In this document: in pieces, positions 13,311 to 34,153 of the stretch
Layout: each line of letters opens with the position of its first letter
How positions within the stretch are numbered: the stretch's first letter is position 1
Source: Candidatus Bathyarchaeota archaeon
GTDB taxonomy: Archaea > Thermoproteota > Bathyarchaeia > Bathyarchaeales > Bathycorpusculaceae
Direction of reading: 5' to 3'
DNA: 47,337 bases
Assembly (NCBI GenBank): GCA_003165195.1
Contig: PLSP01000086.1
Location: forward strand, 1-47,337
Notes under the pieces: model-generated
What the model saw: the letters and a program-made list of their open reading frames with translations, nothing else
What the model was told of the DNA's origin: nothing
Databases searched by the model: none
Program-made: the position numbers and the translations under genes

Positions 13311-13481
13311 GTTGGCCCCTCCTGTTTGGAAAATTGCTTGTTTGCTGTTTGAACGGGCATGGTTTTGCCTCAATGATAATGTTTAGCTAAAGACGACGAT
13401 TTGCAAGTTTATAGCTTTAACGGGAACTTGTCGTTAATTGTGGTCAAGAGTTTTTTTGTTGTTTGTTCTTTACCAATGATT

Positions 13482-14591
13482 TTATTCAAGAATTCGTTTT
13501 ATCGTATCGACGAGTTTTTGGTTGTCTTTGGCTGAGCGAATAGTGACGCGGAAGTAGCTGTCATCTAAGCCCATAAAAGTGCAGCAGTCTCGGATTAGGA
13601 TGCGCTCTTTCGTCAGTTCCTCTTTAAGTTTGGTGGAAGTGATTTTGTGGTTCTCTATTTTTACGAGCACAAAGTTGGTTTCGGATGGGTAGCAGTGCAA
13701 GCCACTGACGGCGTTTAGGTTTTTGCAGAGGACCTCTCTTTCTTTGGTAATTGCCGCCCTAGTGGTCGCAATGAACTTTGTGTCGCCGAAAGCGGCAAGT
13801 GTGGCGTAGCATGCTAAGCCGTTGATGCTCCATGGCAAACGAACGTTCTCCAGCTTGCCTACGAGATTGGGCGTCGCAATGCCATAGCCGAGGCGTATGC
13901 CCGCCATACCATAAAACTTCGTAACCGAGCGAATAACGAAGAGGTTTTCATATTCCTTTACCATGCCCGCAAGTGTGGTGTCTTCGCCCTTCTCTGCAAA
14001 CTCGATGTAGTTCTCGTCTATGCTGAAGATGATGCCTTTTTTCTGGCAGAATTCCACTAGGTCAAGCAACGACTCTCTGGCATAGAGTGTTCCCGATGGG
14101 CTATGAGGGTTGCAGATGCACATTATTTTTGTGTCATCGGTTACTGCCCGTTTAATCTGCTCGTTATTCAGAGAGAAATCTTCTGGCAATTGAACAAAAA
14201 AAACTTCGCCGCCGATTCGTGTTGTCGCTTTTTCGTATTCTGAAAATGATGGCACAGGAATAACCGCTTTGAATTTACTTGGCAAAATTTCAGTTATGCC
14301 GTAAATAAGTTCGATTGATCCGTTGCCTAAAATAATGTTCTCTTCTTCCACGCCGTGTCCAACATACTGGGCGATTTTTTCTTTGAACTCCACTGGGTTT
14401 GGGTCCGGATAGAACTTCATGAGTTTTGCATGCTTTTGGACGGCTTCGACAGCTTTTGGTGAAGGCCCCAAAAAGTTAATGGGTCCACTGAATTCTAAAA
14501 CTTCTTCGAGAGGAACGTTATATTTGCGGCTGAAACCCCAAATGTCTCCACCGTGACTAACAAATCTGCGTTCTTTACAGTTGCCCGACAA
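13482..14591 (-). CDS. cobD: L-threonine-O-3-phosphate decarboxylase CobD (PLP-dependent)
   Basis: Makes (R)-1-amino-2-propanol O-2-phosphate, the linker that CbiB attaches to cobyric acid. 369 aa, aminotransferase fold type I, HisC-like. It shows SHGGDIWGFSRK near the N-terminus (CobD proteins begin with a similar HGG motif), ILGNGSIELIY around 87-97, NPHSPSGTLY, IDEN at 191-194, the PLP lysine K225 in SVTKFYGMAGIRLGY, and the substrate-carboxylate arginine in FRVTIRS. HisC itself is the main alternative, but the SVTKFYGMAGIRLGY sequence and the B12 genes around it favour CobD. The 5' end overlaps the membrane-protein gene at 14575 by 17 bases, so the two are probably cotranscribed. Confidence 0.85.
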   Translation of the reverse strand: MSGNCKERRFVSHGGDIWGFSRKYNVPLEEVLEFSGPINFLGPSPKAVEAVQKHAKLMKFYPDPNPVEFKEKIAQYVGHGVEEENIILGNGSIELIYGITEILPSKFKAVIPVPSFSEYEKATTRIGGEVFFVQLPEDFSLNNEQIKRAVTDDTKIMCICNPHSPSGTLYARESLLDLVEFCQKKGIIFSIDENYIEFAEKGEDTTLAGMVKEYENLFVIRSVTKFYGMAGIRLGYGIATPNLVGKLENVRLPWSINGLACYATLAAFGDTKFIATTRAAITKEREVLCKNLNAVSGLHCYPSETNFVLVKIENHKITSTKLKEELTKERILIRDCCTFMGLDDSYFRVTIRSAKDNQKLVDTIKRILE

Positions 14592-15132
14592 CTTTGTCTT
14601 CCTCCATTAGCCTACTTACTTCTTTCTCCACCTGAGACTGCGCTTTAAAGTGAAGGTTATACAAGTTAACCACCTTGTATAACCAGTAAATTACCCCGAC
14701 ACCCAAGGTACAAACTGTAACGATAACATATGTTTTTATCGGTATAGTCTGAGGCATAAACATCCGCTCTGGAAAAGCAGAAGCCAAAAAAGTGTCTTGA
14801 TTGCGTTCATGTACCAGCAAATCCCTCGACAGAAGGTAGACGATGACAAAGATGGGAATTACTAAAATGATGCTGGCAGCCCACGCCTTTGCATTCCTGT
14901 CGGGTAAACGCTGACTCACTAATGGGACCTTCTTGCCCTGACTTTTCAGGTAGGCAGCAACCTTTTCTTCAAGCTCGGTTTCATGCCTAAAATGTCTGTT
15001 TCTCCCATCCACAAGACGGTAATACATAGGGAAAAACGCTAAACCGAAACTGGCGATAGCCCCCAAAAACCACATGGAAAACCACACTTTTCTGTCAGCG
15101 TAAACTTTACTACTCTGCATAGCGGTTTCCAT
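14575..15132 (-). CDS. small membrane protein overlapping cobD, function unknown
   Basis: 185 aa. One hydrophobic segment near residues 17-36, a charged middle (ELEEKVAAYLKSQGKKVP), a second hydrophobic helix about 83-102 and a third about 133-155, then a charged tail with KEVSRLMEEDK. No family was recognised with confidence. It is the first gene of the minus-strand pair with cobD and overlaps it by 17 bases. Because CbiB, the user of the CobD product, is a membrane enzyme, a role near the membrane in B12 assembly is possible, but that is guesswork. ATG at 15132 or 15120 could be the start. Confidence 0.65.
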   Translation of the reverse strand: METAMQSSKVYADRKVWFSMWFLGAIASFGLAFFPMYYRLVDGRNRHFRHETELEEKVAAYLKSQGKKVPLVSQRLPDRNAKAWAASIILVIPIFVIVYLLSRDLLVHERNQDTFLASAFPERMFMPQTIPIKTYVIVTVCTLGVGVIYWLYKVVNLYNLHFKAQSQVEKEVSRLMEEDKVVGQL

Positions 15133-15216: not shown

Positions 15217-15915
15217 ATGAGGCAACCCCAAAAGCTGCTTTCCATAGTCATCCCAGTGTACAATGAGGAATTAACTATAGGCGACATAATTGACCGGGTG
15301 AAAGCGGCGGCTCAGCAGACTGGCTTGAGAGATGAGATCATCGTTGTAGACGACCATTCGCAAGATCGCTCTCTTTCGGAGGCTCAGCGTCACGGCATCA
15401 AACTTTACACGTTAACGCAGCATATGGGCAAAGGTTATGCTTTGCGTGCAGGTTTCTCTAAAGCTCTAGGCGATGTAATCGTCACAATCGACTCCGACGG
15501 TTCGCATCTGCCTGAAGAACTCTCTGAGGTTTTGGAGCCAGTTTTGAAGGGAAGGGCAGACTTGGTGATAGGCTCTAGATACTTGAATAATAAGCGAGTG
15601 GCTGCACGGAGACTCAACGTTTCAGGCGTGAAGCTTTTTAACCGTTTCATTCAGCTGTTAACGGGTGTTGCTATAACGGATTCGCAGTCAGGCTATCGTG
15701 CCATGAAGAGGGAAGTGCTTAAAGGTCAAAAACTTAAGTCGGGAACATATGAAATAGAATCTGAAATTCTTGTTAAAACAGCGAGAAGAAACTTCCGTAT
15801 CAGCGAGGTGCCCATTAGTTTCGAACAGCGCACCTACGGACGGTCAGGCGTAGACCCAATGGTTGACGGCTTCAAAATTTGGGTATCCATCGTCTCAGCT
15901 TTCATAAGGGGTTAA
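15217..15915 (+). CDS. family 2 glycosyltransferase, dolichyl-phosphate mannose synthase-like
   Basis: 232 aa, GT-A fold: LSIVIPVYNEE at residues 8-18, EIIVVDDHSQD about 40-50, GKGYALRAGF, and the DXD-type metal site TIDSDGSH near 91-98. QSGYRAMKRE and SFEQRTYGRSGV match the acceptor region of DPM1/polyprenyl-phosphate glycosyltransferases. There are no C-terminal membrane helices, so it should be a cytosolic-face enzyme loading a sugar on dolichyl phosphate. First gene of a tight operon; the next ATG is three bases after this stop region. The product sugar cannot be told. Confidence 0.85.
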   Translation: MRQPQKLLSIVIPVYNEELTIGDIIDRVKAAAQQTGLRDEIIVVDDHSQDRSLSEAQRHGIKLYTLTQHMGKGYALRAGFSKALGDVIVTIDSDGSHLPEELSEVLEPVLKGRADLVIGSRYLNNKRVAARRLNVSGVKLFNRFIQLLTGVAITDSQSGYRAMKREVLKGQKLKSGTYEIESEILVKTARRNFRISEVPISFEQRTYGRSGVDPMVDGFKIWVSIVSAFIRG

Positions 15916-15917
15916 GC

Positions 15918-16913
15918 ATGGAATACGATGCGTTTCCCAAAGTTTCAATCATAGTTGCCTCATACAACAATGAGGAAACTATAGGTGAATGCCTCAAATC
16001 CATTTTGGCATTAGACTACCCCACTGACGCGTTTGAAGTCATCGTAATGGATGGCTGCTCAATGGACAAAACCATCGAAATCGCGAAAGAATTACCTGTA
16101 AAAGTTTTCTCTCTGCCTTTAAACTGCCCCGCAGCTTATAACTATGCCCAAAAAGTCGCCGCCAACTCCGTTTTAGGCTTTATAGACTCCGATGCCAAAG
16201 TCGAGCCGCACTGGCTACGCAAACTTGTGCCTCATTTGAAAGAACCGCAGGTGGCAGGAGTCAGCGGAAGAATCGATACATGGAATAACGACAACCCATG
16301 GGCGAAAAGCATTGGTTACGAGCTGAAAACCCGCTATAGTCGCATCGGCAAATACACAAGCCGAATAGCCACCATGAATTTGCTGCTTAAGAAAGCCGTC
16401 ATCGAGGAGGCAGGCGGATGGGACGAAAACTTGCCCAGCCAATACGACACCGACTTAGGCTTTAGAGTCAGCGCCAAAGGCTACAAAATCGCATATGAGC
16501 CAGCGGCTGTATGTTACCACTACAACCGTCAGACACTGCATGCTTATTATCGACAGCAACTGCAGTACGGCAAAAACACACTTAAACTCTACTTCAAACA
16601 CGGCGGCTTAGCTAAGGGGGATGAAATCACTGATTTAGGCATGAATATCCAGCCTTTACTTCTCTTGGCTGCCATCGCATCTTTCCTCCTGGGGATAATC
16701 CCAATACTGCGACCGCTATGGTACCTTTCAGCTGTTATTCTAACAGCAATGTTTCTTTACTTCATTTACTCAGCAAGTAAAGTCGCCGCTAAATTCCACG
16801 ACAAGGTTATTTCTAGGCTGGTGATTCTGTATTTTGTCCGCTCGTGGGCTTGGTATGTCGGCGCAGTGTCAACTAGCTTTAACTACTTATCTGGCAAGGG
16901 GCGGAAAAAGTAG
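15918..16913 (+). CDS. family 2 glycosyltransferase with C-terminal membrane helices
   Basis: 331 aa from the ATG at 15918, preceded by an AAGGGGTT site; an in-frame start at 15879 lies inside the previous gene and is less likely. GT-A signatures: VSIIVASYNNEETIGECL, FEVIVMDGCSMD, the metal-binding FIDSDAKVE and a GGWDENLPSQYDTDLGFR catalytic segment. The last about 110 residues hold two or three membrane helices (LLLLAAIASFLLGIIPIL, AVILTAMFLYFIYSA). It resembles envelope-polysaccharide or N-glycan-building transferases. It is separated from the following gene by one base, so all three transferases are presumably translated from one message. Confidence 0.85.
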   Translation: MEYDAFPKVSIIVASYNNEETIGECLKSILALDYPTDAFEVIVMDGCSMDKTIEIAKELPVKVFSLPLNCPAAYNYAQKVAANSVLGFIDSDAKVEPHWLRKLVPHLKEPQVAGVSGRIDTWNNDNPWAKSIGYELKTRYSRIGKYTSRIATMNLLLKKAVIEEAGGWDENLPSQYDTDLGFRVSAKGYKIAYEPAAVCYHYNRQTLHAYYRQQLQYGKNTLKLYFKHGGLAKGDEITDLGMNIQPLLLLAAIASFLLGIIPILRPLWYLSAVILTAMFLYFIYSASKVAAKFHDKVISRLVILYFVRSWAWYVGAVSTSFNYLSGKGRKK

Positions 16914-16914
16914 A

Positions 16915-18108
16915 GTGCGAAGTATCTGCTTCGTTTCCCCAGAGTACTGGCCTCTTAGCGGCGGTACAGGAGCCTACGTCTACTACCTTGCAAACGAGCT
17001 CCTGAAAAACGCCTACCGCATCTACGTGGTTACGGGTTCGAACCAGACTTTGGATGTTCAAGTTAACCCACAACTCAAAGTGTTCTTCCTACAAATCCCA
17101 AAAACACCCATTATAAAATCTTTTATGCTCGCACAAGCCAGTAATCGCAAACTAAACAGCGAACGCCCAAACCTCAACGTCGACGTTACCCATGTCAACC
17201 TGCCGCTGACTCCAAACTTTGCCGTGCCGCCTAACTTTGGAAAAGCCACAATTTGTACTGTGCATTCCACTTGGAAAGGGGAAGCCCAAGCCATCAGCCG
17301 CGAACCCTTCAGTCGACTTAACTCGAACGAAAAGTTCATGGTAAGCTTTAATTGGTTTTTGCGAATTTTTGAGGAGAAAATGCTTGAGCGAGCTAAAAAA
17401 ATCATTGCGGTAAGCTATTTTACTAAAAAAGAACTTACACAGTATTATGGTGTTGCTGAAAGCAAAATCCGAGTTATCCATAATGGGGTTGATATCAAAA
17501 AGTTCCAGCCTGTTTTGGATAAGCGCAAAGCCAAGGTCGAACTCGGGTTTAACCCCGATGATTTACTCATACTCTCTGTAGGACGTCTTTATGCCCGTAA
17601 AGGTCTGTTCACTCTCATCGAATGTATGCCAAAAGTGACCAAACGTTTCTCAAACGCAAAATTCGTGATTTCAGGCAAAGGGCAAAGCGACGAAATGCAC
17701 AAACTAATTGCCCATGCCGAGCGCCATGGCGTAAAAGATAAAATCATTTTCACAGGCTACTACCCTGACAAAAAACTGCCTCTGCTTTACCAGACCGCCG
17801 ATGTCTTTGCGTTTAGCACATTCTATGAACATCACCCCTTCGCCGTGTTGGAAGCGCTCTCAACAGGTTTGCCTGTGGTAACCACTTGGGTGGGCGGCAT
17901 CCCCGAAACCATCCAAAGCGGCAAAAATGGGCTCCTTGTCGAGCCATTCAACGCCAAGCAGTTCTCTGACAAAATAATCTATTTGCTTGAGCACCCAGCG
18001 GAGGCAGAGGAAATGGGAAGGTTGGCCAGAAAGACCATTGTGCAACACTACGATTGGAGTATAGTCGTTAAGGACACCATAAAAGTCTACGATGAAGTAT
18101 TGGGCTAA
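16915..18108 (+). CDS. GT-B (family 4) glycosyltransferase
   Basis: 397 aa from a GTG at 16915, one base after the previous stop; the upstream ATG at 16834 would overlap that gene heavily. The N-terminal half shows FVSPEYWPLSGGTGAYVYYL and AVSYFTKKELTQYYG with VIHNGVDIKKF. The C-terminal half has SVGRLYARKGLFTLI, FVISGKGQSD, FTGYYPDKKLPLLYQTADVF and the GT4 donor-binding segment HHPFAVLEALSTGLPVV. It probably adds a nucleotide-sugar-derived hexose to a lipid-linked glycan started by the two preceding enzymes. The 3' end overlaps the convergent DUF362 gene by four bases. Confidence 0.86.
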   Translation: MRSICFVSPEYWPLSGGTGAYVYYLANELLKNAYRIYVVTGSNQTLDVQVNPQLKVFFLQIPKTPIIKSFMLAQASNRKLNSERPNLNVDVTHVNLPLTPNFAVPPNFGKATICTVHSTWKGEAQAISREPFSRLNSNEKFMVSFNWFLRIFEEKMLERAKKIIAVSYFTKKELTQYYGVAESKIRVIHNGVDIKKFQPVLDKRKAKVELGFNPDDLLILSVGRLYARKGLFTLIECMPKVTKRFSNAKFVISGKGQSDEMHKLIAHAERHGVKDKIIFTGYYPDKKLPLLYQTADVFAFSTFYEHHPFAVLEALSTGLPVVTTWVGGIPETIQSGKNGLLVEPFNAKQFSDKIIYLLEHPAEAEEMGRLARKTIVQHYDWSIVVKDTIKVYDEVLG

Positions 18109-19064
18109 GCGGTCTGTATTGGTTCTTTTCGGTACGCCATTGTGACTTTTTGGAACAACTTTACTATATCCAATGAGCAAAAGAAAAATTTTGTTAAGTA
18201 TTCATGCTGATAAATCATCATTTGCGCTTTAACGGGTAAATCAATCCGCGGCGGCTCAAACCGATGTTCAACCGTGGCAATCGGCAAGCCCTCAATAATA
18301 ACGTCGTCCTCACGCACGCCTGTTTTGCTAGCGATGTAGCCTAGATAAGTTTCTTTCCAATCCAGCATCATAACCTTGGCAGCCGTTATATCAACCGCTA
18401 AAGCATCGTTGCCTGTCAACATTAACCCCATTTTAACGGGTTTGCCTTTAGTCGGTCCATTACCTTCGATGCCTATTCGTGCATCCATAATCGTTAATTG
18501 CGGCTTGAAAAGTGTGTATAGACGATAGAAAACTTCAGGCAAATATGGGTGCAAATAGATGCGTTTGTTGCTTGGCACGCAGCCAAAGAGATTTTTGATG
18601 GCACCGCTGTAAGCCATAAACTCGTGTGTTTTCATCAAGGGCAAATCCACCACGGCATCCGCATCCAACACGGTTTTGGGAAGAAACAGCCGCTTCAATG
18701 GAGTGTTGCCCTGAAATTTTACTTCAACAAGTTTGTCTTCCGAGAGGTTGATGACGCTGCCGCCTGCCGCTTTCACTGAGGTTTGTACGCCTGTTTTATC
18801 GAACGCTGTCCAGCAGGGATAGTTGAAGCCGTTTGATTCGCCCACAATGACCTCGCTGTTCCCATCACGCAACAAGCCGACGAGTTGATGCATTAATTCG
18901 GGGCTTGTAACAACACCTGGCAGGTATTCTGGGTGACTTAAGTTTGGTTTAATGAAAATTGTGTGTTTGCCCCTCAACCCTGAAGCTTCAACGGCTTCCT
19001 TTACAATATCGCTTATATCGTCTCTTGAGCGGAAAATTTTGACGGTTTTTTGTGGGTTAGGCAC
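18105..19064 (-). CDS. DUF362 family protein
   Basis: About 320 aa. DUF362 hallmarks: IFIKPNLSHPEYLPGVVTSP, VGESNGF, DADAVVDLPLMKTHEFMAYSGAIKNLFGC, DARIGIEGNGPTKGKP and LTGNDALAVDITAAKVM. The usual C-terminal ferredoxin segment of many DUF362 proteins is missing; the tail is hydrophobic and basic. GTG at 19064 is preferred because an AAGGTGG site lies just before it; GTG 19073 is the longer option. It overlaps the end of the SPASM radical SAM gene and is the last gene of a minus-strand run cobS-like, cobY-like, radical SAM, DUF362. The biochemical role of the family is not settled. Confidence 0.8.
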   Translation of the reverse strand: MPNPQKTVKIFRSRDDISDIVKEAVEASGLRGKHTIFIKPNLSHPEYLPGVVTSPELMHQLVGLLRDGNSEVIVGESNGFNYPCWTAFDKTGVQTSVKAAGGSVINLSEDKLVEVKFQGNTPLKRLFLPKTVLDADAVVDLPLMKTHEFMAYSGAIKNLFGCVPSNKRIYLHPYLPEVFYRLYTLFKPQLTIMDARIGIEGNGPTKGKPVKMGLMLTGNDALAVDITAAKVMMLDWKETYLGYIASKTGVREDDVIIEGLPIATVEHRFEPPRIDLPVKAQMMIYQHEYLTKFFFCSLDIVKLFQKVTMAYRKEPIQTA

Positions 19065-20484
19065 TTTTGCCACCTTTCACTCCCATAATGCAGCCAGGAT
19101 CGCCATTAAACATGTCACCGTTATGATAAGCTGCTGAACGTGCTCTGCAGCCGCCGCAGATATACTTGTAATCGCATTTGCCGCAGGAACCTTTGAGGTT
19201 GGCTCTATTTCGAAACGCGTTGAAAAGAGATGCGTTGAGCCAGATGTCTTGGAACTTTTCGGTTTTAAGATTGCCAACGTTAACAGGCAAAAACACGCAT
19301 GGGTGAACGTCGCCTTGCGGCGATAGCGAACAGTAGAGTCTGCCTGCTCCACATCCACCAATAAAGTCGCCGAGTGGAACAGCTTTTTTTGTTACCTTGA
19401 CTGTTTGCATGTGCGCCATCGACATGGTTACTTCGCCTGTGCCCGATGACCCCTGACATTGCAAGGCAACGCGCGCAAGCTGAGGCGCAGTGGCAAGGAT
19501 AGTGGTTTTGCAGCCTGCAGATATGCGATTTAGCAGGTACTGAAGCACTTTTTCGCGTTCTTGAGGTGACAAATCTTGATCAGCATGTGCTTTACCTCGA
19601 CCAGTCGGAATAAAATTGAAGTAGGTAAATCGTTCGGCGTGAATATTCTCTGCTAAGTCGATAATTGCAGGCAATTCTGCCATGTTATTTTTGCCCACTG
19701 TTGTAGCAATGCACACACATAAGTCAGCTTCGACACAGTTCTTAAGACCAGCTAACGCTTTGTCAAATGTACCAGGTACGCCTCGAAATTCATCATGCGT
19801 TTTGGCAGATGCGCCGTCGATACTAACATCGATGTAGTTCACCTTGGCTTCCTTGATTTTCCGTACATTCTCTTTCGTTAGGAGGGTGCCGTTTGAAGCA
19901 AGTGACACATAAAGTCCACGGTCAGACGCATGCCGTGCAACCGTAAAGAAGTCACTGCGCGTCAGAGGCTCGCCGCCTGAAAACGCCAATGCCGTCACAC
20001 CTGCATCAGCAAGCTGATCCACAACCGCCAACGCCTGTTCGGTGGTTAATTCTTCCTCTTGAACTGCGCCAGAATTGGAGTAGCAGTGCTTGCAGGCTAA
20101 GTTACATTTATGAGTAAAATCCCAAACAACCAAAAACGGTGCAGAAAGTGACATAGGTTTCTTTATGCCAAAATAAGCAAACGACCGTACTAAATTAAGA
20201 ACCGCTGTTCTTGCGTAAGGGTCAGCTAAAAGCTTCTCAACTTTTTCCCGCTTAAAATTGAGGCTTCTTCTCAAAAATTCAAGCCAGAAACCGATTACCC
20301 GCGAGTAAAGACCACTGCATTTCTCGCATTTTCGATCAATTTTTCCTGCGTAATCGTCTAGTGCTGCTTCAAGAACCGTTCTACCACATGCTGGACATTT
20401 CTTCAACGACAATTTGAGCATTCGCTTAGTCATGGGCAGCGTTATCACCGCGTTCCAAAAGGTGTCATGGCTAATCAGGCTCAT
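19057..20484 (-). CDS. radical SAM/SPASM enzyme with N-terminal zinc-ribbon-like extension
   Basis: 475 aa. The N-terminus carries CPAC (30-33) and CEKC (53-56), a probable zinc ribbon or extra cluster site. The radical SAM core has C127-x3-C131-x2-C134 (KCNLACKHCYSNSG), FSGGEPL, LASNGTLL and VSIDGASAKTHDEFRG. The C-terminal SPASM part has GCGAGRLYCSLSPQGDVHPC, then CGKCDYKYICGGCR, with enough cysteines for two auxiliary clusters. SPASM enzymes modify peptides or cofactors; AhbC/NirJ-like heme enzymes have this general plan too, but no specific match can be claimed. GGAGGAGGAGA eight bases upstream of ATG 20484 fixes the start. It sits 108 bases after the cobY-like gene on the same strand. 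Confidence 0.88.
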   Translation of the reverse strand: MSLISHDTFWNAVITLPMTKRMLKLSLKKCPACGRTVLEAALDDYAGKIDRKCEKCSGLYSRVIGFWLEFLRRSLNFKREKVEKLLADPYARTAVLNLVRSFAYFGIKKPMSLSAPFLVVWDFTHKCNLACKHCYSNSGAVQEEELTTEQALAVVDQLADAGVTALAFSGGEPLTRSDFFTVARHASDRGLYVSLASNGTLLTKENVRKIKEAKVNYIDVSIDGASAKTHDEFRGVPGTFDKALAGLKNCVEADLCVCIATTVGKNNMAELPAIIDLAENIHAERFTYFNFIPTGRGKAHADQDLSPQEREKVLQYLLNRISAGCKTTILATAPQLARVALQCQGSSGTGEVTMSMAHMQTVKVTKKAVPLGDFIGGCGAGRLYCSLSPQGDVHPCVFLPVNVGNLKTEKFQDIWLNASLFNAFRNRANLKGSCGKCDYKYICGGCRARSAAYHNGDMFNGDPGCIMGVKGGKSA

Positions 20485-20592
20485 TTAGCAGGTTCTCCTC
20501 CTCCGCAATTGGGGTAGTGTAGGTTGCGGGGTAATGTTAAAGATTTCTCTAAAACCGTCAAATTGTTGTGTGAAGCCAAAGCATGAAAAAGA

Positions 20593-21210
20593 TCAGCGTC
20601 TGCTCTTCATTATTTTCTCTGCGATTTCCAAGTCTTTAAGCGTGTTAATATTTAGTAGCACTTCAACCTCTTCGGTTATAAGTGCAACTGTTTCGATTTT
20701 GCCTTCGCCCTGGATTTTGTCGCCGTTAACGATATTGACGCCAGACACAGCATACCACACACCCCTGTACTCATCAATGGAATCGACGGATAGCCCTGAT
20801 CGCTCGCGGATTTCAATAGGCACAAAAACCGCATAGAACTCTTTTTGGCAGGCTTCGAACTGGCTAACTATTTTGTCGAGGAATTTGCCTGTGATCGCCG
20901 GCGAATCCGCTGGGATGGTCAACACTGGACCAATCAAACCTGCTGTCTTTGTAGCTTGCCTTAGGTCATTGTGGTAGCCTTTGGCATCAGTGCACAAAAC
21001 TCTCCACCCCATGCTTTTACAATGCTTCTCCGTCAGCGGAGTGTTAGGGCTGACAACAACATAGAACTCAGAGACCTTCTCGGCGCCTGCAACTGCCTCA
21101 GCCACCCAGTCAATGAGCGGTTTGTCCAAAAAAGGCAAAAGAGGCTTTTCCGTAGGTAACCCCATGCGTTTGCCTTTGCCGCCAGCCATAATCAACGCAG
21201 GTACTATCAT
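20593..21210 (-). CDS. CobY-like nucleotidyltransferase (copy 1)
   Basis: 205 aa, MobA/CobY-type nucleotidyltransferase: ALIMAGGKGKRMG at residues 5-17, EKPLLPFLDKPLIDW, LTIPADSPAITG as the metal-binding region, and a C-terminal NINTLKDLEIAEKIM. In archaea CobY uses GTP to convert adenosylcobinamide phosphate to adenosylcobinamide-GDP. Length matches CobY. It overlaps the cobS-like gene by four bases. A second, more typical CobY lies at 34927-35544, so this copy may be redundant or act on a different phosphate. No symbol is given because the neighbouring CobS copy is unusual and the genes opposite concern lipids. Confidence 0.75.
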   Translation of the reverse strand: MIVPALIMAGGKGKRMGLPTEKPLLPFLDKPLIDWVAEAVAGAEKVSEFYVVVSPNTPLTEKHCKSMGWRVLCTDAKGYHNDLRQATKTAGLIGPVLTIPADSPAITGKFLDKIVSQFEACQKEFYAVFVPIEIRERSGLSVDSIDEYRGVWYAVSGVNIVNGDKIQGEGKIETVALITEEVEVLLNINTLKDLEIAEKIMKSRR

Positions 21211-22040
21211 ATAGCCACCATTAAAACCGCTGAAAATAGGATAAGAGTGACTGCCCTTGCAACCTCGTTTGTTGCTCCAATCATGTCGCCTGAAACCCCG
21301 CCGAAAACATTCTCCGAAACTTTTTCCATTGCAAACGCCACTGGGATGCTCACCAACACGAGTCCGATGCCGATTAAACCCAAGATGGGTTTGCCGCTTA
21401 GGGCAAAGAACGGGATAACGATTAGCATTGAGAGGGCGTAGGCGATTATGTTTAGTTTGTTTTTTGCTTTCGCTATAAAAATTGAGCCTAGGCCTTTGTG
21501 GGTGGGTTTTCCAATCCAGACTATGGTTACCATTGCAAGCTTTGCCGATAGCTCCGCGACAACTATGGCGCCAAAAGCATAGAGCGGGTTAATTAAAAAC
21601 AAGCCTATGAAGGCGACGAATTCCACGATCAACGCTAGCAAAGCCCCCCAGTATGTTACGGTCCATGCGTGAGCTGCCATTTTTCGGTCATGTAAGTTTC
21701 GGACGCCAAAAGCGTTGCCAAGGTCAATTAAGCCGTCAAAGTGTTGCAGTCCCGTTATCACAAGCAGGAAGGCCACTGTCATTGCTGCAACCACAAGTTT
21801 TGAGAGGATAGCAGTTGGCAAGGCAATTAACGGGGTTGTTAAGCTGAGCAGGAAACGTACAAGGTAACCTGAACCGACAAAGTAGGCTCCGGTCAAGACA
21901 CCGATGAAGGCGCCGATGATGGGAAAAAGGTAAACGTGTTCAGCCGTTGTGAAGATGAAGTCTTCTTTTCCGCCTACCGGGATAATTGTCAGAAAAGATA
22001 GCAAATCCCTAAAAGTTTTTATAGGCTTCAACGGCGACAT
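21207..22040 (-). CDS. CobS-like adenosylcobinamide-GDP ribazoletransferase paralogue (copy 1, diverged)
   Basis: Polytopic membrane protein, about 277 aa from ATG 22040; ATG 22058 is the longer option. The shorter start aligns better with copy 2, and a TATA-like element about 26 bases away would make the message leaderless. The fold is CobS: FLTIIPVG, HVYLFPIIGAFIG, TGLQHFDGLIDLG and a C-terminal FGGVSGDMIGATNEVAR. However, the signature that in copy 2 reads HTDGLLDFGDG is here HFDGLIDLGNA, replacing the third Asp, and the following MxD segment is RKMAAHAW. It may still be CobS or may join a different nucleotide-activated group to a different alcohol. It is divergent from the epimerase gene. 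Confidence 0.75.
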   Translation of the reverse strand: MSPLKPIKTFRDLLSFLTIIPVGGKEDFIFTTAEHVYLFPIIGAFIGVLTGAYFVGSGYLVRFLLSLTTPLIALPTAILSKLVVAAMTVAFLLVITGLQHFDGLIDLGNAFGVRNLHDRKMAAHAWTVTYWGALLALIVEFVAFIGLFLINPLYAFGAIVVAELSAKLAMVTIVWIGKPTHKGLGSIFIAKAKNKLNIIAYALSMLIVIPFFALSGKPILGLIGIGLVLVSIPVAFAMEKVSENVFGGVSGDMIGATNEVARAVTLILFSAVLMVAI

Positions 22041-22071
22041 ATAACCTAAACTCAACATAACACAATATAGG
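22038..22071. promoter_or_regulatory. overlapping divergent promoters, cobS-like operon (left) and lipid operon (right)
   Basis: Only 47 bases separate the ATG at 22040 (minus) from the ATG at 22088 (plus). CATATAAC at 22038-22045 is a box A for rightward transcription; CCTATATTG on the minus strand (22063-22071) is one for leftward transcription. The two elements point at each other's genes across the same short segment, so RNA polymerases or a single regulator should affect both operons. Confidence 0.5.
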
Positions 22072-22087
22072 TTTTGTCGTGGTTGGT

Positions 22088-23023
22088 ATGGGGGAGCTTC
22101 AGGGGAAAAAAATAGTAGTTACTGGCGGAGCGGGCTTTATTGGCTTCCACCTCTGCAAGAAACTATCTGAGTTAACGTCGAATTTGACAATTTATGATAA
22201 TTTGTCAAGCGGCAAAATGGAAAACGTCAAAGACGTGCCCAAAGCTAAGCTTGTTAAAGGCGACATTTTAGACCTAAAAAAACTCAATTCATTGGAGAAG
22301 GCTGATTTAATATATCATTTAGCAGCTCAAGTGGTCGTGCCCTACTCCATGGAAAACCCTATAATTGACTTTGACACAAACGCCAAAGGTACCCTTCATG
22401 TTCTTGAGAAAGCACGTAAAGACGACTCCAAAGTCGTTTTCGCCTCAAGCGCCGCCGTCTACGGTAACTCCACGGTCTTTCCAACCCCAGAATCCTACGG
22501 TTTCCACCCATTCTCATGTTATGGCTTATCAAAAGTTGTGGGTGAGGAATACTGTGACATGTATCGCAGTCAATACGGCTTAGACATCGTAATCACCAGG
22601 TTTGCCAATGTTTATGGACTAAGATGTCATGGCGTCATCCACGACTTCCTCGACAAGCTAACAGCTAACCCGGGCAAACTAGAAATCATAGGCACTGGTT
22701 TGCAGTCAAGAGATTTCGTTCATGTCTCCGATGTAGTAAATGCTCTTGTCACTATGGGATCAGAAGATTCTGCCAATGGCCAGGTCTACAACCTCGGCTA
22801 TGGAACAACGATTACTATTATCGATCTTGCCAAAATGATGCTAAAGATTTTGGGTTTGGAAAAGAAAACGTTTGTGACCACAACAGGCGTGTCCTGGCAA
22901 GGCGACGTTACCGAAATCTGGTTTGATAACTCAAAAGCCCGAAAAGAGTTGAATTGGAACCCCACAGTTAGTCTCGAAGAAAGCATTAAAGAAGTCATTG
23001 CTGACAGGAAACTGTCTAAATGA
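22088..23023 (+). CDS. NAD-dependent nucleotide-sugar epimerase/dehydratase (extended SDR, GalE-like)
   Basis: 311 aa from ATG 22088; a GTG at 22079 would add three residues. NAD-binding motif VTGGAGFIGFHLCKKL at the N-terminus, DLIYHLAAQ near 80, then the catalytic serine region FASSAAVYG and Tyr-Lys in YGLSKVVGEEY. RFANVYGLR, DFVHVSDVV and YNLGYGT are typical of UDP-hexose 4-epimerases and dehydratases. The exact sugar cannot be fixed by eye. Its stop overlaps the UbiA gene by four bases, so it is the first gene of an operon with lipid enzymes; supplying a sugar for a glycolipid head group is a sensible inference. Confidence 0.85.
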   Translation: MGELQGKKIVVTGGAGFIGFHLCKKLSELTSNLTIYDNLSSGKMENVKDVPKAKLVKGDILDLKKLNSLEKADLIYHLAAQVVVPYSMENPIIDFDTNAKGTLHVLEKARKDDSKVVFASSAAVYGNSTVFPTPESYGFHPFSCYGLSKVVGEEYCDMYRSQYGLDIVITRFANVYGLRCHGVIHDFLDKLTANPGKLEIIGTGLQSRDFVHVSDVVNALVTMGSEDSANGQVYNLGYGTTITIIDLAKMMLKILGLEKKTFVTTTGVSWQGDVTEIWFDNSKARKELNWNPTVSLEESIKEVIADRKLSK

Positions 23024-23904
23024 CTCTGGCTGCACCGGCTAAAGGTATAGTTGCTCTTTTACGGTTTCCCTATTGGCTGATGACCGGCGGCCTATCTGTC
23101 CTGACAGCGTTTGCCATAAACAAAAGCATGATTGCCCCCCAAACAATCGTTTTAATATTTTTTTCAATGGCATTTATCACCAGTGCAGGGTTCGCAATCA
23201 ACGATTACTTTGACAGGGAAAGCGACGCAGTCATAAAGCCCAAACGCCCTATCCCCTCAGGAGCCCTGTCCCTTAAACAGGTAATTGTGGTTTCAGGCGT
23301 CCTTTTCACAATAGGGTTGATAATGGCTGCCTACATAAACTGGCTCAGCTTTGTAATTATTTTGGCAGATTCATTGCTACTTCTAATTTACTCAACGCTT
23401 GTAAAACGCAAATCTGGTTTTGTAGCAAACATTCTGATCGGTATTTTGACAGGCACTGCCTTCATATATGGACAAGCAACTATCTCCCAACCTCCGACTG
23501 TAAACCTAATTTCTCTAAGTCTCTACCCCATTGCCTTTGGCACAATAGGCGGCAATGTGCTCCGGGATATCCTAAGTGTAGAGGGCGACTCAAAGGTTGG
23601 GTACCCGACGCTTCCGCAGAAAATCGGCGGCGTTAGATCAGCGAAGGTAGCTGCATTTTTCTTTACATTAACTGCGGTGTTTGCTCCTCTGCCCTCTCTT
23701 CCATTCTTTGCAGGTCACTTTACAGTTTACTATTTACCGCTCATCCTGCTTTGGAGTGCCCTTTTGATTTATGCTTCAATTCATCTGGCAACCTCAGCTT
23801 CATCAGTAACTAACGTTCGGAAATACGAACGAATTGTGACTATGTCAATGATTTTGTTACCGCTAGCGTTAATAATTGAAGCGACACTTGGAGGGATGCT
23901 ATGA
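23020..23904 (+). CDS. UbiA-family prenyltransferase, probably digeranylgeranylglyceryl phosphate synthase
   Basis: 294 aa with about eight membrane helices. First Asp-rich motif N61-D-x2-D65-x3-D69 (NDYFDRESDA) followed by KPKRPIPSG; second motif LRDILSVEGD at 181-190 followed by GYPTLPQKIGG. This combination is characteristic of archaeal DGGGP synthases, which add the second geranylgeranyl chain to geranylgeranylglyceryl phosphate in ether-lipid synthesis. Some archaea carry several UbiA paralogues with other acceptors, so the activity is likely but not certain. Four-base overlaps with both neighbours (epimerase before, Tes-type radical SAM after) show translational coupling. Confidence 0.8.
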   Translation: MTLAAPAKGIVALLRFPYWLMTGGLSVLTAFAINKSMIAPQTIVLIFFSMAFITSAGFAINDYFDRESDAVIKPKRPIPSGALSLKQVIVVSGVLFTIGLIMAAYINWLSFVIILADSLLLLIYSTLVKRKSGFVANILIGILTGTAFIYGQATISQPPTVNLISLSLYPIAFGTIGGNVLRDILSVEGDSKVGYPTLPQKIGGVRSAKVAAFFFTLTAVFAPLPSLPFFAGHFTVYYLPLILLWSALLIYASIHLATSASSVTNVRKYERIVTMSMILLPLALIIEATLGGML

Positions 23905-25367
23905 CCAAGACAAAGAGCATCTGCCCCGACTGCCAGAAAAAAATAGATGCCCAACTTACACAAGCCAACGGGAAAATCCAAATCACCAAACAATGTCCAG
24001 AACATGGCGAGTTCGAGGCCACTCACTGGCAAAGCTCAAAAGTCTATAGCCATATGCAAACTTTTGACCAGTTCCAATATCTTGGCGACTTGAACGCTCC
24101 TAAAGACCCTGAAGGTTGCCCCTATAAATGTGAAACCTGCAGTAATCATGCTTCAGGCACTGTTATAGGCGTAATTGATGTCACAAAACGTTGTAACTTC
24201 AAGTGTGCAGTTTGTTTCTCGACTTTTCCCCAGCAAGAAGTCGATTATGAGCCAACCAAAGAAGCGCTCATAGACATGCTTGAGTTTGTAAGTAAAGCTA
24301 ACCCCAAACCTCCAGCGATTCTCTTCTCCGGCGGCGAACCCCTTGAACGTGAGGATATGCCTGAAATAATTAGTGCTGCTCACAAGCTAAAGTTTATGAC
24401 TATTTTGGCGACTAATGGGACTCACTTGGTTGACACGCCTGGGTTGGCGAAGAACCTGAAAGATAGTGGCTTAAACATCGTTTATTTATCGTTTGACAGT
24501 TTCCACGAAGATTTCAACAAAAAGGTTAGAGGGCGAGAGCTCTTAGACGTTAAACTGAAAGCTATTGAGGTTTGCCGACAACACGACATGGAAATCATCT
24601 TAGTTAACACTTTGATGAAAAGTCTAAACGATAATGAGGTCGGCGACATGATTCGGTTCGCTGCAAAAAACACTGACATTGTACGTGGCTTAATTTTCCA
24701 GCCTATCGCTTTCACGGGCCGTGCTACAGAAAATCCGTTCCGCGAGAATTTCAGGGAGTGGTCTTTTGCTGAGGACGTTGAAAAACAAACCGGTGGCGAA
24801 GTAAAAGCAACAGATCTGTTTCCTATGTCGGTTATGACTTCGCCAATCAAAATCATGCGCAAGTTCATGCAAAAACCTTGGCCACTGTTCTCATGCAGCC
24901 CGCAATGTGGCATAGTTAATTGGATTTACGTTTCTAAAGAAGGCAAAATGTTTCCAATCAACCGCTTTGTCAACTTTGACAGGTTCTTTAACACCATTCG
25001 CAAAACCGCTGAAAATGCAGAGTCTAAAGGCAAATTCTCATTGCTCTCATCGCTTTTTATGGCCTCTATGCTTTCGATGAACATGCTGCTTGTAACCCAA
25101 GAAGTCGGAATGTTGACCTTGTTGAACTCGGTTATGCGTATGCATTTGTCGCCTTCTTATCAGTCGTTGGGCAAAATCCGCCGCCGAATCTTTTTGTTAG
25201 GCTGCATGGCTTTCATGGATTCCTACAATTTTGACGTAAACCGTGTCCGCCGATGCGTAGTCCACTATATCACTCCCGATAAGAAAATCATACCGTTCTG
25301 CGCTTACAACAACATCCACAGAGTCGCCATCGAAAAACAGTACGCTGAAAGCCACAAAAAAGCTTAG
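23901..25367 (+). CDS. radical SAM protein of the MJ0619/tetraether lipid synthase (Tes) family
   Basis: 488 aa. The N-terminal cysteine pattern is that of this family: CPDC at 8-11, CPEHG at 32-36, GCPYKCETC with C73, C77 and C80, then the radical SAM motif C98-x3-C102-x2-C105 (RCNFKCAVC). FSGGEPLEREDMPEI, LATNGTHL, YLSFDSFHEDF and IRFAAKNTDIVRGLIFQPIAF follow, then CSPQCG with KMFPINRFVN, and a C-terminal CVVHYITPDKKIIPFCAYN. Known Tes proteins join two archaeol-type lipids tail to tail by C-C bond formation to make tetraether lipids; an older proposal for MJ0619 was pterin methylation. Translational coupling to a DGGGP-synthase-like UbiA gene supports the lipid role. Confidence 0.8.
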   Translation: MTKTKSICPDCQKKIDAQLTQANGKIQITKQCPEHGEFEATHWQSSKVYSHMQTFDQFQYLGDLNAPKDPEGCPYKCETCSNHASGTVIGVIDVTKRCNFKCAVCFSTFPQQEVDYEPTKEALIDMLEFVSKANPKPPAILFSGGEPLEREDMPEIISAAHKLKFMTILATNGTHLVDTPGLAKNLKDSGLNIVYLSFDSFHEDFNKKVRGRELLDVKLKAIEVCRQHDMEIILVNTLMKSLNDNEVGDMIRFAAKNTDIVRGLIFQPIAFTGRATENPFRENFREWSFAEDVEKQTGGEVKATDLFPMSVMTSPIKIMRKFMQKPWPLFSCSPQCGIVNWIYVSKEGKMFPINRFVNFDRFFNTIRKTAENAESKGKFSLLSSLFMASMLSMNMLLVTQEVGMLTLLNSVMRMHLSPSYQSLGKIRRRIFLLGCMAFMDSYNFDVNRVRRCVVHYITPDKKIIPFCAYNNIHRVAIEKQYAESHKKA

Positions 25368-25867
25368 CTTTGGACTTGGATGTTTAATATTACATAATCG
25401 CCTGTGAATTCATAGGCCTGTGTTGCATAGTTGTAGTGCCAGAGCTCGTAAACCACTGAGTAACTTCCAGGCTGGTTTAACGTGACGGTGGATTGTGTTT
25501 GCCAGGTTGCCCCGTTGCCGACGCTTACGTTGTAAGTCTGTGTCGGCGTCACATCAACTGGGAAATTCTCAAGGTTAGGTGTAATTTTTTCAAGAACTTG
25601 GTATGTTTGGTTGCCGCTTCCTCCCAAGTGATTCTGCACATCTACATAAACGCTAAAAGTGCTGTTCTGGTTCGCAATCAATGTAACGGGGTAGTCGGCA
25701 GCGTTTTTTTGGCTGTCCAACAAGTATATGGTGCTATAGCCGGTTGGCTGGGTCCTTGCAAATGCAAAGTAGCCAGTAACAACGGCGGCAACAATTATTA
25801 ACGCCAGCAAAATAGCGACGGTGACGCCTTTGTCATCGTTTAAGCCGATTTTTCTTCCAATGCCCAT
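25364..25867 (-). CDS. DUF1616-type membrane-anchored protein
   Basis: 167 aa from ATG 25867 (the open frame runs further upstream inside the glycosyltransferase gene). A short basic N-terminus, one membrane helix (GVTVAILLALIIVAAVVTGY, about residues 14-33), then an extracellular beta domain: TIYLLDSQKNAADYPVTL, STFSVYVDVQNH, a repeated Tyr/Thr-rich strand pattern and a GDYVILNIQVQS end. This matches the DUF1616 pattern seen in archaeal envelope proteins, often near glycosyltransferases. It overlaps the preceding GT2 gene by 35 bases and the convergent Tes-type gene by four. Function not known. Confidence 0.72.
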   Translation of the reverse strand: MGIGRKIGLNDDKGVTVAILLALIIVAAVVTGYFAFARTQPTGYSTIYLLDSQKNAADYPVTLIANQNSTFSVYVDVQNHLGGSGNQTYQVLEKITPNLENFPVDVTPTQTYNVSVGNGATWQTQSTVTLNQPGSYSVVYELWHYNYATQAYEFTGDYVILNIQVQS

Positions 25868-26570
25868 AACACGTTCTGACAGTGTTGGCGTGCAGTAGCC
25901 CCCGAAATATAGTGCTAAATATTTCAATCCCCGACTTAAATGGTTTAAGCTTTGTCTTGCCGTATATGCGCGGTTTGTATGTTGTGGGGATTTCAACCAT
26001 ATTGAAACCTTCCCTTGCGAATTCTATCAGCATCTCCGTTGCGTAAGCCATATCGCCTGCCTTTAACTGGACTTTATCGATGGCTTCGTGGGAAATCGCG
26101 CGGAAACCTGATTGGGAGTCGCTTAGGAATTGGCTGTAAAAGAAGTCGTAAGTGAAAGTTATGAGTTTGTTGCCAAGAAAGTTCAAAAAGCCCATAGCCT
26201 TTTTGGGGTCGTACATGCGTGTGGCAAGCACCATGTCAGCGTCTTTTTCCAGCATTCGCTCCACGAGGCGGTTGATGTGGCGTACTTCGTAGGTTCCGTC
26301 GCCGTCAACCATCACTATGATGTTGCCTTTCGCGTGTTTCATACCTGTTCTAAGAGCGACGCCGTAGCCGCGTTTCGGCTCAATAATTAGCCGGCAAAAG
26401 TTAGTGTCTTTAACGATTTCTATAGTTCCGTCGGTGGAGTTGCTGTCAACAACGATAATCTCCTTTGGGTAAATCATCTCTTTCTGGATGGTGGTGACAG
26501 CTTCCAATATGTTTCCTGCTTCGTTGAGCGTCGGAATGACAATAGAGACCAAATCAACTTTTGACGTCAT
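25833..26570 (-). CDS. family 2 glycosyltransferase (polyprenyl-phosphate sugar synthase type)
   Basis: 245 aa from ATG 26570, supported by a GGAGAAGG ribosome site; the longer frame upstream lacks one. VSIVIPTLNEAGNI at the start, EIIVVDSNSTDGT, GYGVALRTGM, then the metal-binding MVDGDGTYEV, and SDSQSGFRAI with YKPRIYGKTKLKPF in the acceptor part. No membrane helices. Related to, but distinct from, the DPM1-like enzyme at 15217. Lies between a GT4 gene and the DUF1616 gene in a minus-strand operon, probably acting in surface glycan or protein glycosylation. Confidence 0.84.
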   Translation of the reverse strand: MTSKVDLVSIVIPTLNEAGNILEAVTTIQKEMIYPKEIIVVDSNSTDGTIEIVKDTNFCRLIIEPKRGYGVALRTGMKHAKGNIIVMVDGDGTYEVRHINRLVERMLEKDADMVLATRMYDPKKAMGFLNFLGNKLITFTYDFFYSQFLSDSQSGFRAISHEAIDKVQLKAGDMAYATEMLIEFAREGFNMVEIPTTYKPRIYGKTKLKPFKSGIEIFSTIFRGLLHANTVRTCYGHWKKNRLKR

Positions 26571-26617
26571 TGCCTTCTCCCTTCTCCTGCAAAGGCTATA
26601 TTGATTCCTCAACATGA

Positions 26618-27775
26618 TTAAATAAGCTCTTCGTATATTCGCATAAGCGACTCCACATTTCTGTCCCAACTAAACTTTTCTTCCATAACCGCACGCAACT
26701 CAAACCTGCGTTTTGTCCAGTCACCCTCGGCCAACTCTAAAACTGCCTTCGCAAACAACTCTGGCTCGTTAGGCGGCACCAGTTTTCCAAACTTTTCCGT
26801 CAAAACCTCGCCAATTCCGCCAACGTTTGTTGCTACAACAGGCAATCCGCATGCCATGGCTTCAAGCGCAACCAGAGGTAATCCTTCGCCGGATTTAGAT
26901 GGTAGCGCAAAAAAGTCTGCAGCGTTATAGTAGAGGGGTAAATCCTCGTCACTGACAAAACCTGTGAGCCTAAAATTATTCTCTAAACCCAACTGCTTAA
27001 CCCGTTGCTGCACGCTTGCCATATCAGGACCCTTGCCTACCGCCAAGAAAACAACTTTTGGGTTCTTTTTTGCAGCGATGTTTGCGGTGTCTATTAGTGT
27101 GTCTATGCCGTTTTTGTAAACCAGCCGCCTGACAGTCAGAAACACAACAGCATCTTTGGGGATCCCAAGTTTTCGGCGCATCTCCACCTGCTTACCCAAC
27201 ATAGGTCTGAAACGCTCTAAGTCTACCCCGTTGTGCAAAACTGTAATCTTGCTGGGTTTTGCTCCTAAACTTAAAACGTAATCCCTTGAAGCGCTGCTTA
27301 CTGCGACTATTTTGTCGGCTTTTTTTAGAGTCTCCTTCCCAACAGCAAGGTCGTTTACCTTTTCAACGTTTTCGAAAAGGTTGTTGTATTCAATAAAGGT
27401 GTTATGCTGCGTTAAAACAAACGGTTTACCGTAACGTTTGGCGAGTTCCCCTGCAATCAAAGACGTTAGGTATGGGTGGCCGTGGGCATGGATTATTTCG
27501 GCTGATTTCACTGCCCTCAGAAACGTTTTGAAGCTTCCAAACGTCGGAATCGGGTAGGGTATGCCAAGGCTGAAGCCAGTGTTTAGTGAGCTGTAGCATT
27601 CAACTTGGATGCCGTCGAGAACATAATGTTTAGGCGTGCCAATTCTGCTAGTGACAACACTGGGTTCATAATTTTTCTTCATGAGTCGCTTGCTCTGTTC
27701 ATAAACAACCTTTTCTATACCGCCGACATGGGGCAGAAAGGTATGCGTTACAATGCAGAGCTTTGTTTGAACCAT
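26618..27775 (-). CDS. GT-B (family 4) glycosyltransferase
   Basis: 385 aa from ATG 27775, where the usual GT4 N-terminal strand begins (KLCIVTHTFLPHVGGIEKVV); an in-frame start at 27802 adds nine residues with no homology-like content. It has EIIHAHGHPYLTSLIA, IVAVSSASRDYVLSLGA, VLHNGVDLERFRP, TVRRLVYKNGIDTLID, FLAVGKGPDM, LTGFVSDEDLPLYYNAADFF and the donor-site segment GEGLPLVALEAMACGLPVVA. First gene of the operon GT4-GT2-DUF1616. Donor and acceptor unknown. Confidence 0.86.
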   Translation of the reverse strand: MVQTKLCIVTHTFLPHVGGIEKVVYEQSKRLMKKNYEPSVVTSRIGTPKHYVLDGIQVECYSSLNTGFSLGIPYPIPTFGSFKTFLRAVKSAEIIHAHGHPYLTSLIAGELAKRYGKPFVLTQHNTFIEYNNLFENVEKVNDLAVGKETLKKADKIVAVSSASRDYVLSLGAKPSKITVLHNGVDLERFRPMLGKQVEMRRKLGIPKDAVVFLTVRRLVYKNGIDTLIDTANIAAKKNPKVVFLAVGKGPDMASVQQRVKQLGLENNFRLTGFVSDEDLPLYYNAADFFALPSKSGEGLPLVALEAMACGLPVVATNVGGIGEVLTEKFGKLVPPNEPELFAKAVLELAEGDWTKRRFELRAVMEEKFSWDRNVESLMRIYEELI

Positions 27776-27928
27776 GACAGCCCAACAACGTAAAAACCTC
27801 AACCAACGTCCTATTAACCTTATGGTAAACCAAAATAGTCACTGAGTAAATGGCAAAAAGGAGGTATCTCAACTCCAAAGTTTACCCTTTAAAGTGTTGT
27901 CAAGAAGACTTCGCAAAGCTATTTTTTA

Positions 27929-29656: not shown

Positions 29657-30166
29657 TTAGTAGAAAACTTCGTTTTGTGGTCTTTCAGGTTTGGCTTCAG
29701 CAATTTTTGTAGCGCGGGTGTAAACGTTTGACGATACGCCTGCAACCAAGGCGCCTATGGCGTCGTTTGTGATTGAGCCCAGCCTTTTGAGTATTCCAGG
29801 TTTAGCCTGATCAAAACGTACATATTCGAAAACTCCTCGGGTTCCTCCGATGTAGCTTGCAATCGCTAACCCCAAGACCTCATCAGCAACAGGTCCCGGC
29901 CTGCCCTTAAATCGTTCCTGAGTTAACCCTGGAACCAGCCCCTTCTCTGCGTCTTCCTGCGCTCGAAAAGCCATAACAAGCAAAATAGAAACGTTAACGT
30001 CACCTAAAACATCAAGGAACTCTTCTCTAAGCATCTCTGTTGCCTTTTCCGCAGTTTCGATGCCTGGATGGGGTACATACATTTCAAGGGCACAGTAAAT
30101 CAGGCTTTTTAGAGAAATATCTTTCTGTTCAAGGAAATCAAGTAGGGCTGGCGTTTCTTCAGTCAT
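29657..30166 (-). CDS. cobZ: PgpA-like phosphatase, probably CobZ (alpha-ribazole phosphatase)
   Basis: 169 aa from ATG 30166 (a TTG at 30181 would add five residues). The central segment VADEVLGLAIASYIGGTRGV, then FEYVRFDQAKPGIL, and a later TNDAIGALVAGVSSNVY match the phosphatidylglycerophosphatase A fold, with its DE-x-x-G and D-x-x-x-A-G type metal residues. In methanogens a member of this family, CobZ, replaces CobC as the phosphatase of alpha-ribazole phosphate or adenosylcobalamin phosphate. The many B12 genes around favour CobZ; lipid phosphatase activity is the alternative. Unlike bacterial PgpA it lacks strong membrane helices, again in favour of CobZ. Confidence 0.65.
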   Translation of the reverse strand: MTEETPALLDFLEQKDISLKSLIYCALEMYVPHPGIETAEKATEMLREEFLDVLGDVNVSILLVMAFRAQEDAEKGLVPGLTQERFKGRPGPVADEVLGLAIASYIGGTRGVFEYVRFDQAKPGILKRLGSITNDAIGALVAGVSSNVYTRATKIAEAKPERPQNEVFY

Positions 30167-34152: not shown

Positions 34153-34153
34153 G

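Follow-up and report, generated by a model that had tools for sequence, protein, structure and literature searches.

The 47,337-nucleotide contig PLSP01000086.1 of Candidatus Bathyarchaeota archaeon (assembly GCA_003165195.1, genome G000 in our set; the whole contig is called the window) carries two copies each of the late vitamin B12 genes cobS and cobY. One pair, cobS1 and cobY1, lies in a divergent seven-gene block together with genes for an additional UbiA prenyltransferase (ubiA2) and a second tetraether-lipid-synthase homologue (tes2). Our analysis suggests that an altered second set of B12-assembly enzymes has been borrowed to decorate a membrane lipid. The duplicated set looks recruited, not redundant, and comparison of the sequences supports the view that altered late-B12 enzymes were recruited to a second, Bathyarchaeia-specific pathway for a tetraether (glyco)lipid. 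A first-pass annotation had proposed recruitment of the cobS/cobY pair to lipid chemistry; conserved gene order, separate clades, residue changes in CobS1 and the second Tes and UbiA speak for it, whereas copy 1 tracks with the late B12 genes, and the pair model left out CobD1, whose gene adjoins cobY1-cobS1 in deeper lineages.

All seven open reading frames (ORFs) of the block were confirmed in position and family by the ORF list and by Pfam and NCBIfam profile searches (Table 1). Four-base overlaps join cobS1 to cobY1 (the cobY1 start lies on the cobS1 end), the epimerase gene to ubiA2, and ubiA2 to tes2, and the SPASM and DUF362 genes overlap by 17 bases. The canonical cobS and cobY reported elsewhere in the window were also recovered, in a canonical-type cobT-cobS-cobY run. 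In the source genome (171 contigs, 95.3% complete, 5.5% contaminated), CobS is matched twice, each time within the window, and a second homologue of each of CobD1, CobY1, CobS1, UbiA2 and Tes2 is encoded outside the cluster. The block itself is real but was drawn too narrowly: it belongs to a larger cluster at about 13.5-27.8 kb, from which a cobD-like gene and five glycosyltransferase genes had been overlooked. Neighbourhood maps of 15 loci (L033-L047) and of the 78 loci of the contig scan described below reveal a recurring two-part unit, one half with cobD1, a 185-residue membrane-like protein, GT2, GT2, GT4, DUF362 and SPASM genes, and the other with cobY1, cobS1, epimerase, ubiA2, tes2, a DUF1616-like ORF, GT2 and GT4. 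In relatives, ORFs that look similar by eye to the DUF1616 gene occupy the same place beside tes2. The genes cobS1-cobY1-cobD1 are consecutive in deeper lineages (L039-L041, L043-L047, L135, L138, L140, L143, L144, L146-L148, L150). In the f6 family the gene order is altered with the cluster genes still together, at L147 cobS1 lacks adjoining tes2, ubiA2 and epimerase genes, and a DUF362, cobY or epimerase gene was not mapped at some loci.

Conservation was followed by scanning contigs with CobS1-derived peptide patterns and taking the best 80, with 78 loci retained from 234 candidates; divergent relatives could be missed because of these patterns and this selection. Fifty-three are CobS1 loci (L098-L150), in records titled Bathyarchaeota, Bathycorpusculum, Bathyarchaeum, MCG and, in a few cases, Nitrososphaerota or Crenarchaeota, while the other 25 come from other archaea and hold canonical CobS, with Desulfobacteraceae as the record title in one case. 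By the order of labelled genes, the seven-gene arrangement recurs at 15/53 CobS1 loci and at 13 of the 37 with room for it, so it is not unique to G000; 11 of the 15 have no gap above 500 bases between labelled genes, the gapped ones being L099, L105, L118 and L129. The five-gene core cobY-cobS1-epimerase-ubiA-tes is present at 38/53 loci, in every case without such a gap. Within 10 kb of CobS1, tes and ubiA were each found at 50 loci, cobY at 49, epimerase at 47, SPASM at 32, cobD at 25, cobT at 10 and cbiB at 4, the full 10 kb on both sides being present at only 4/53. The corresponding counts around the 25 canonical CobS genes are 0 for tes and ubiA, 1 for epimerase, 16 for cobY, 11 each for cobD and cbiB, and 8 for cobZ.

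In a tree of both CobS copies, CobS1 forms its own clade apart from canonical CobS (20 rows of a 65-row subsample, support 100/100, stem 1.05), nested with Bathyarchaeia CobS at only 88/91. The protein exceeds its profile cut-offs (PF02654, 91.2 versus 23.2 bits; TIGR00317, 111.2 versus 110), and PF02654 alone was reported at E<=0.001, with no match to the CDP-alcohol phosphotransferase family PF01066. Residues were compared between 60 distinct CobS1 and 67 canonical sequences (40 Bathyarchaeia-type, 26 others and E. coli) in E. coli numbering, which is in line with the Salmonella motif. The third Asp of the HxDxxxDxxD motif given in the available text of PMC8092220 is not kept: position 89 is Asn in 60/60 CobS1 and Asp in 67/67 canonical sequences. 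Position 104 is Ala in 60/60 (Met in 62/67 canonical), position 107 is Trp in 60/60 (no Trp among the 67), Gly110, present in 67/67, is absent from all 60, and Asp106, also present in 67/67, is lost in 59/60. H80, D82 and D86 are retained in 60/60, and the GxxGDxxG loop is kept, with G228, D229 and G232 in 59/60 (one gap) and G225 in 56/60. In Salmonella CobS, according to the portion of PMC8092220 available, D82A, D86A, D89A and D229A each abolish growth on cobinamide, additional cobinamide rescues H80A and M104A, M104A is weak at low cobinamide, and the loop with D89 and M104 is proposed to bind adenosylcobinamide-GDP (AdoCbi-GDP). As the CobS1 substitutions map to that loop, it is the proposed donor loop that is altered. 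We do not class CobS1 as a cobamide synthase, because a defining CobS motif fails; it may work like a CobS-type phosphotransferase. Its AlphaFold model scored well (mean predicted local distance difference test 90.1, predicted template modelling score 0.89), but the fold could not place the protein, as a Foldseek search of the PDB returned nothing at E<=0.001; a phmmer search of PDB sequences was likewise empty at E<=1. Separately, CobS2 of the f6 family (L216-L218) stands on a long stem (1.47), and mapping of its neighbours with window proteins showed no cobT.

The partner enzymes are likewise distinct from their second copies in trees: CobY1 (55 rows, 100/99), CobD1 (32 rows, 95/99) and CbiB1 (12 rows, 100/99) each form a separate clade. 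CobY1 scores 119.0 against the TIGR00454 cut-off of 174.7, a threshold that does not discriminate here because the canonical-type copy of the window also fails it (141.7). GG-G-R, K22 and D102, which we take to be nucleotide-binding residues, are common to CobY1 and CobY2 at a frequency of at least 93%. CobD1 of the window falls below its TIGR01140 cut-off, which some other cluster copies exceed, and CobD1 retains H13, K225 and R348. In window numbering, position 164 is Ser in 32/32 CobD1 and Asn in 25/25 other CobD, and position 195 is Tyr in 32/32 and Phe in 25/25. At L250, CobD2-CbiB2 lies in a run with ORFs that we presume to resemble tetrapyrrole genes.

Tes and UbiA of the block are indeed additional copies, with second homologues elsewhere in the genomes. 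Tes2 scores about 450-494 bits against NF045702, compared with 590-690 for canonical-range Tes, which is found elsewhere in most CobS1-positive genomes (exceptions include G002, G019, G029 and G077). The metal ligands described for GDGT-MAS in the available text of PMC9433317 are kept in Tes2, with the cysteines and His of the rubredoxin, N-terminal, radical SAM and C-terminal clusters common to eight Tes1 sequences; Met at 436 and 439 is also shared, and C263 of the eight Tes1 is Gly in 53/53 Tes2. A PF01040 search of 19 cluster genomes found a higher-scoring UbiA elsewhere in 15 and showed none in G038, G048, G058 and G077. UbiA2 belongs to the UbiA family and has an NDxxDxxxD motif by eye; on the profile for digeranylgeranylglyceryl phosphate (DGGGP) synthase, NF009521 (PRK12882), it scores 164.2 against a cut-off of 296. 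Separate PF01066 CDP-alcohol phosphotransferase genes occur in 28/29 genomes scanned, and having them does not distinguish cluster genomes from the rest; the genome without a match at 1e-6 is G100, which holds L147.

Across 100 genomes including G000, 45 have CobS1. CobD1 is present in 41/45 of these and 2/55 others, and Tes2 in 44/45 and 2/55; the Fisher values of this tally are not independent tests because the genomes are related. The corresponding counts for the second copies are 30/45 and 4/55 for CobD2 and 38/45 and 4/55 for CbiB2. At E<=1e-30, cobyric acid synthase (TIGR00313) was matched in none of 29 genomes but in 9/14 control genomes, which makes salvage of cobyric acid probable (no search for CbiZ was run). 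Among 16 further genomes, CbiB was not seen in three (G100, G112, G115) and was only a fragment in G111, with completeness not stated; G100 and G112 nevertheless have the CobD1-CobY1-CobS1 trio, which we count in favour of the lipid reading.

A Kennedy-like phospho-aminoalcohol head group ranks first among the specific mechanisms, as a tentative choice. CobD1 would make an aminoalcohol phosphate by decarboxylating a phospho-amino acid of the Thr-P or Ser-P type, CobY1 would add a nucleotide to this phosphate (GMP in CobY), and the membrane-embedded CobS1 would move the phospho-aminoalcohol from the activated form onto a hydroxyl group carried by a lipid or glycolipid. UbiA2, Tes2, the epimerase and the glycosyltransferases would have assembled this acceptor, and the transfer would leave it with a phosphodiester head group. 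All substrates, the step order and the use of a free aminoalcohol rather than cobinamide as donor are what we infer; the duplication, cluster conservation, co-occurrence, clade-wide CobS1 and CobD1 changes, CobY1 nucleotide-binding residues and Tes2 metal ligands are read from the sequences themselves.

Several observations weigh against this reading. CbiB1 co-occurs with CobS1 as tightly as CobD1 does (41/45 versus 2/55), and a free-aminoalcohol model needs no CbiB. CobS2 is present in 42/45 CobS1-positive genomes and 7/55 others, and therefore the cluster tracks with corrinoid genes; of the three without CobS2, two are 80-82% complete and one comprises 620 contigs. Copy 1 had been expected in genomes lacking B12 synthesis, but none clearly lacks the late genes, and no role outside genomes with them was found across the 100. 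Although CobY1 forms its own clade, a CobY2-type enzyme stands beside CobS1 in nine genomes (9-row clade, 100/99) and a CobY1-type enzyme beside CobS2 in nine (9-row clade, 100/100). Both swaps are seen together in eight genomes, and the exchange belongs to one Bathycorpusculum subclade (L183, L185, L187, L189, L190, L192, L196, L199, L201, L206-L214). A TIGR00454 scan found a single CobY in 9/19 cluster genomes, and eight of these nine hold both CobS1 and CobS2; the swap and these genomes look as if CobY1 and CobY2 made the same product. S164 and Y195 could change the CobD1 reaction. One CobS1 (L037) retains D106, and the D89 variant in the available text of PMC8092220 is Ala, with Asn not among the variants described there. 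The cobD1 and cobS1 halves lie on separate contigs in G032, G043 and G054. The missing CbiB may be an assembly gap, because the genomes are metagenome-assembled, and G100 and G112 also hold a second CobS match.

We rank a second cobamide second and consider it unlikely: a second CobD-CbiB-CobY-CobS set would make a cobamide with another linker or lower ligand, and it would sit beside lipid genes because nearby B12-dependent radical SAM enzymes need that cobamide. In its favour, each of the four late enzymes has a duplicate, CobD1 and CbiB1 co-occur with CobS1, CobY is exchanged between partners or present singly, and two B12-binding radical SAM genes lie in the window, with homologues beside cbiB1 at L248 and L249. 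Against it stand the replacement of D89 and, in all but one sequence, D106 of CobS1, the proximity of ubiA and tes at 50 of the 53 loci but of cobT at only 10, and the lack of TIGR00313 matches, by which corrinoids would need salvage. An improbable third choice is a lipid-anchored corrinoid, in which CobD1, CbiB1 and CobY1 would make activated cobinamide and CobS1 would link it to the tetraether glycolipid of UbiA2 and Tes2 instead of alpha-ribazole, so tethering a salvaged corrinoid to the membrane. It would account for CbiB1 co-occurrence, exchangeable CobY, the lipid genes adjoining cobS1 and the conserved GxxGDxxG loop, but the altered CobS1 loop is the one proposed, in the available text of PMC8092220, to bind AdoCbi-GDP, cbiB1 is usually apart from cobS1, and no precedent appeared among the open-licence literature matches listed. 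More doubtful still is a reversed pair model, in which CobY1 would activate a lipid phosphate made by UbiA2, much as CarS activates a lipid phosphate with CTP, and CobS1 would join it to a polar alcohol, leaving CobD1 and CbiB1 to B12 only. The divergence of cobY1-cobS1 from epimerase-ubiA2-tes2 and the additional Tes2 and UbiA2 agree with it, but CobD1 accompanies CobS1 in 41/45 genomes and follows cobY1 in deep lineages, and CobY1 and CobY2 have exchanged places. Finally, late B12 genes on both sides in the window would fit lipid genes placed there by history beside a drifting duplicate CobS1, a very improbable account, as the core persists through rearrangement down to 36-45% CobS1 identity and N89, A104 and W107 are invariant.

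The Kennedy pathway (the CDP-ethanolamine route) proceeds by aminoalcohol phosphate, nucleotide activation and membrane phosphotransfer, with other protein families; the proposed CobD1-CobY1-CobS1 route, if right, follows the same logic with different proteins. CDP-alcohol phosphotransferases (PF01066) are membrane enzymes that move a phospho-alcohol from a nucleotide, and CobS1 is not matched by that profile, while nearly all genomes scanned hold separate PF01066 genes. The set belongs to the same protein families as late cobamide assembly (CobD, CbiB, CobY/CobU, CobS) and retains the CobY1 nucleotide-binding residues and CobS1 H80, D82, D86 and D229; it differs in the loss of CobS1 D89 and (59/60) D106, in CobD1 S164/Y195 and in lying beside tes2 and ubiA2. 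Tes2 exceeds the NF045702 cut-off and shares the metal ligands of Tes (GDGT-MAS), differing as a second, lower-scoring copy with Gly for C263. Methanosarcina acetivorans also has a second Tes homologue, MA_1114, with which only trace macrocyclic archaeol was made according to the available text of PMC8941075. Searches for CobS with Bathyarchaeia and lipid, for CobY/CobS paralogues with head groups, and for Bathyarchaeia intact polar lipids returned nothing relevant among the open-licence matches listed. The cluster offers a testable gene set for a second tetraether lipid with an unusual phosphodiester, and every step of the proposed pathway can be assayed. If the reading is true, cofactor-assembly enzymes have been reused in membrane-lipid synthesis, and the CobS1 substitutions amount to a natural test of the CobS residues that determine which donor and acceptor are chosen.

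Table 1. Features of the window around the cobS1 block (bit scores from profile searches)
Feature	Position	Strand	Evidence or remark
cbiB1, second CbiB	530-1489	-	co-occurs with cluster, usually not adjacent
cobD1, CobD-type pyridoxal-phosphate enzyme	13482-14591	-	TIGR01140 281.6, cut-off 290.55
185-residue protein, membrane-like stretches	14575-15132	-	adjoins cobD1; no Pfam match
GT2 glycosyltransferase	15217-15915	+	best NCBIfam match AglJ, below cut-off
GT2 glycosyltransferase	15918-16913	+	profile match
GT4 glycosyltransferase	16909-18108	+	profile match
DUF362 protein	18105-19073	-	PF04015 163.8
SPASM radical SAM enzyme	19057-20484	-	best curated match AhbD (heme synthase), TIGR04545 310.4; cut-off 500 missed
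cobY1, MobA/CobY-type nucleotidyltransferase	20593-21210	-	profile match, conserved residues, tree
cobS1, CobS-like membrane protein	21207-22058	-	conserved start at 22040; PF02654 91.2
Divergent intergenic gap	22041-22087		conserved TATAGNYTTTRT element
GalE-type NAD-dependent epimerase	22079-23023	+	TIGR01179 174.3, cut-off 262.3
ubiA2, UbiA prenyltransferase	23020-23904	+	profile match; higher-scoring UbiA at G000:C59
tes2, second tetraether-lipid-synthase homologue	23901-25367	+	NF045702 467.6, cut-off 450
DUF1616 protein	25364-25996	-	profile match
GT2 glycosyltransferase	25833-26612	-	profile match
GT4 glycosyltransferase	26618-27802	-	profile match
cobZ	29657-30181		profile match
cobT-cobS2-cobY2, canonical-type comparison set	33058-35544	+	profile match

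The 47-base length given earlier for the divergent gap is right when 22040 and 22088 are taken as the starts. The overlapping TATA elements described there were not supported: simple TATA patterns on both strands occur in 11/48 gaps, the window gap not among them, and this reading was dropped. The element TATAGNYTTTRT is present in 42/47 distinct cobS1/epimerase gaps and ends close to a possible GTG start of the epimerase. In the f6 family, a dihydrolipoamide-dehydrogenase-like ORF, seen by eye, lies between cobS1 and tes2 (L043, 10942-12372; L046, 11067-12509). The two B12-binding radical SAM enzymes of the window flank the region at 5280-6665 and 11934-13373. Two very large ORFs of 943 and 911 residues (1839-4670 and 8213-10948) are alike by eye, the first with weak PQQ/Ig-like Pfam matches.

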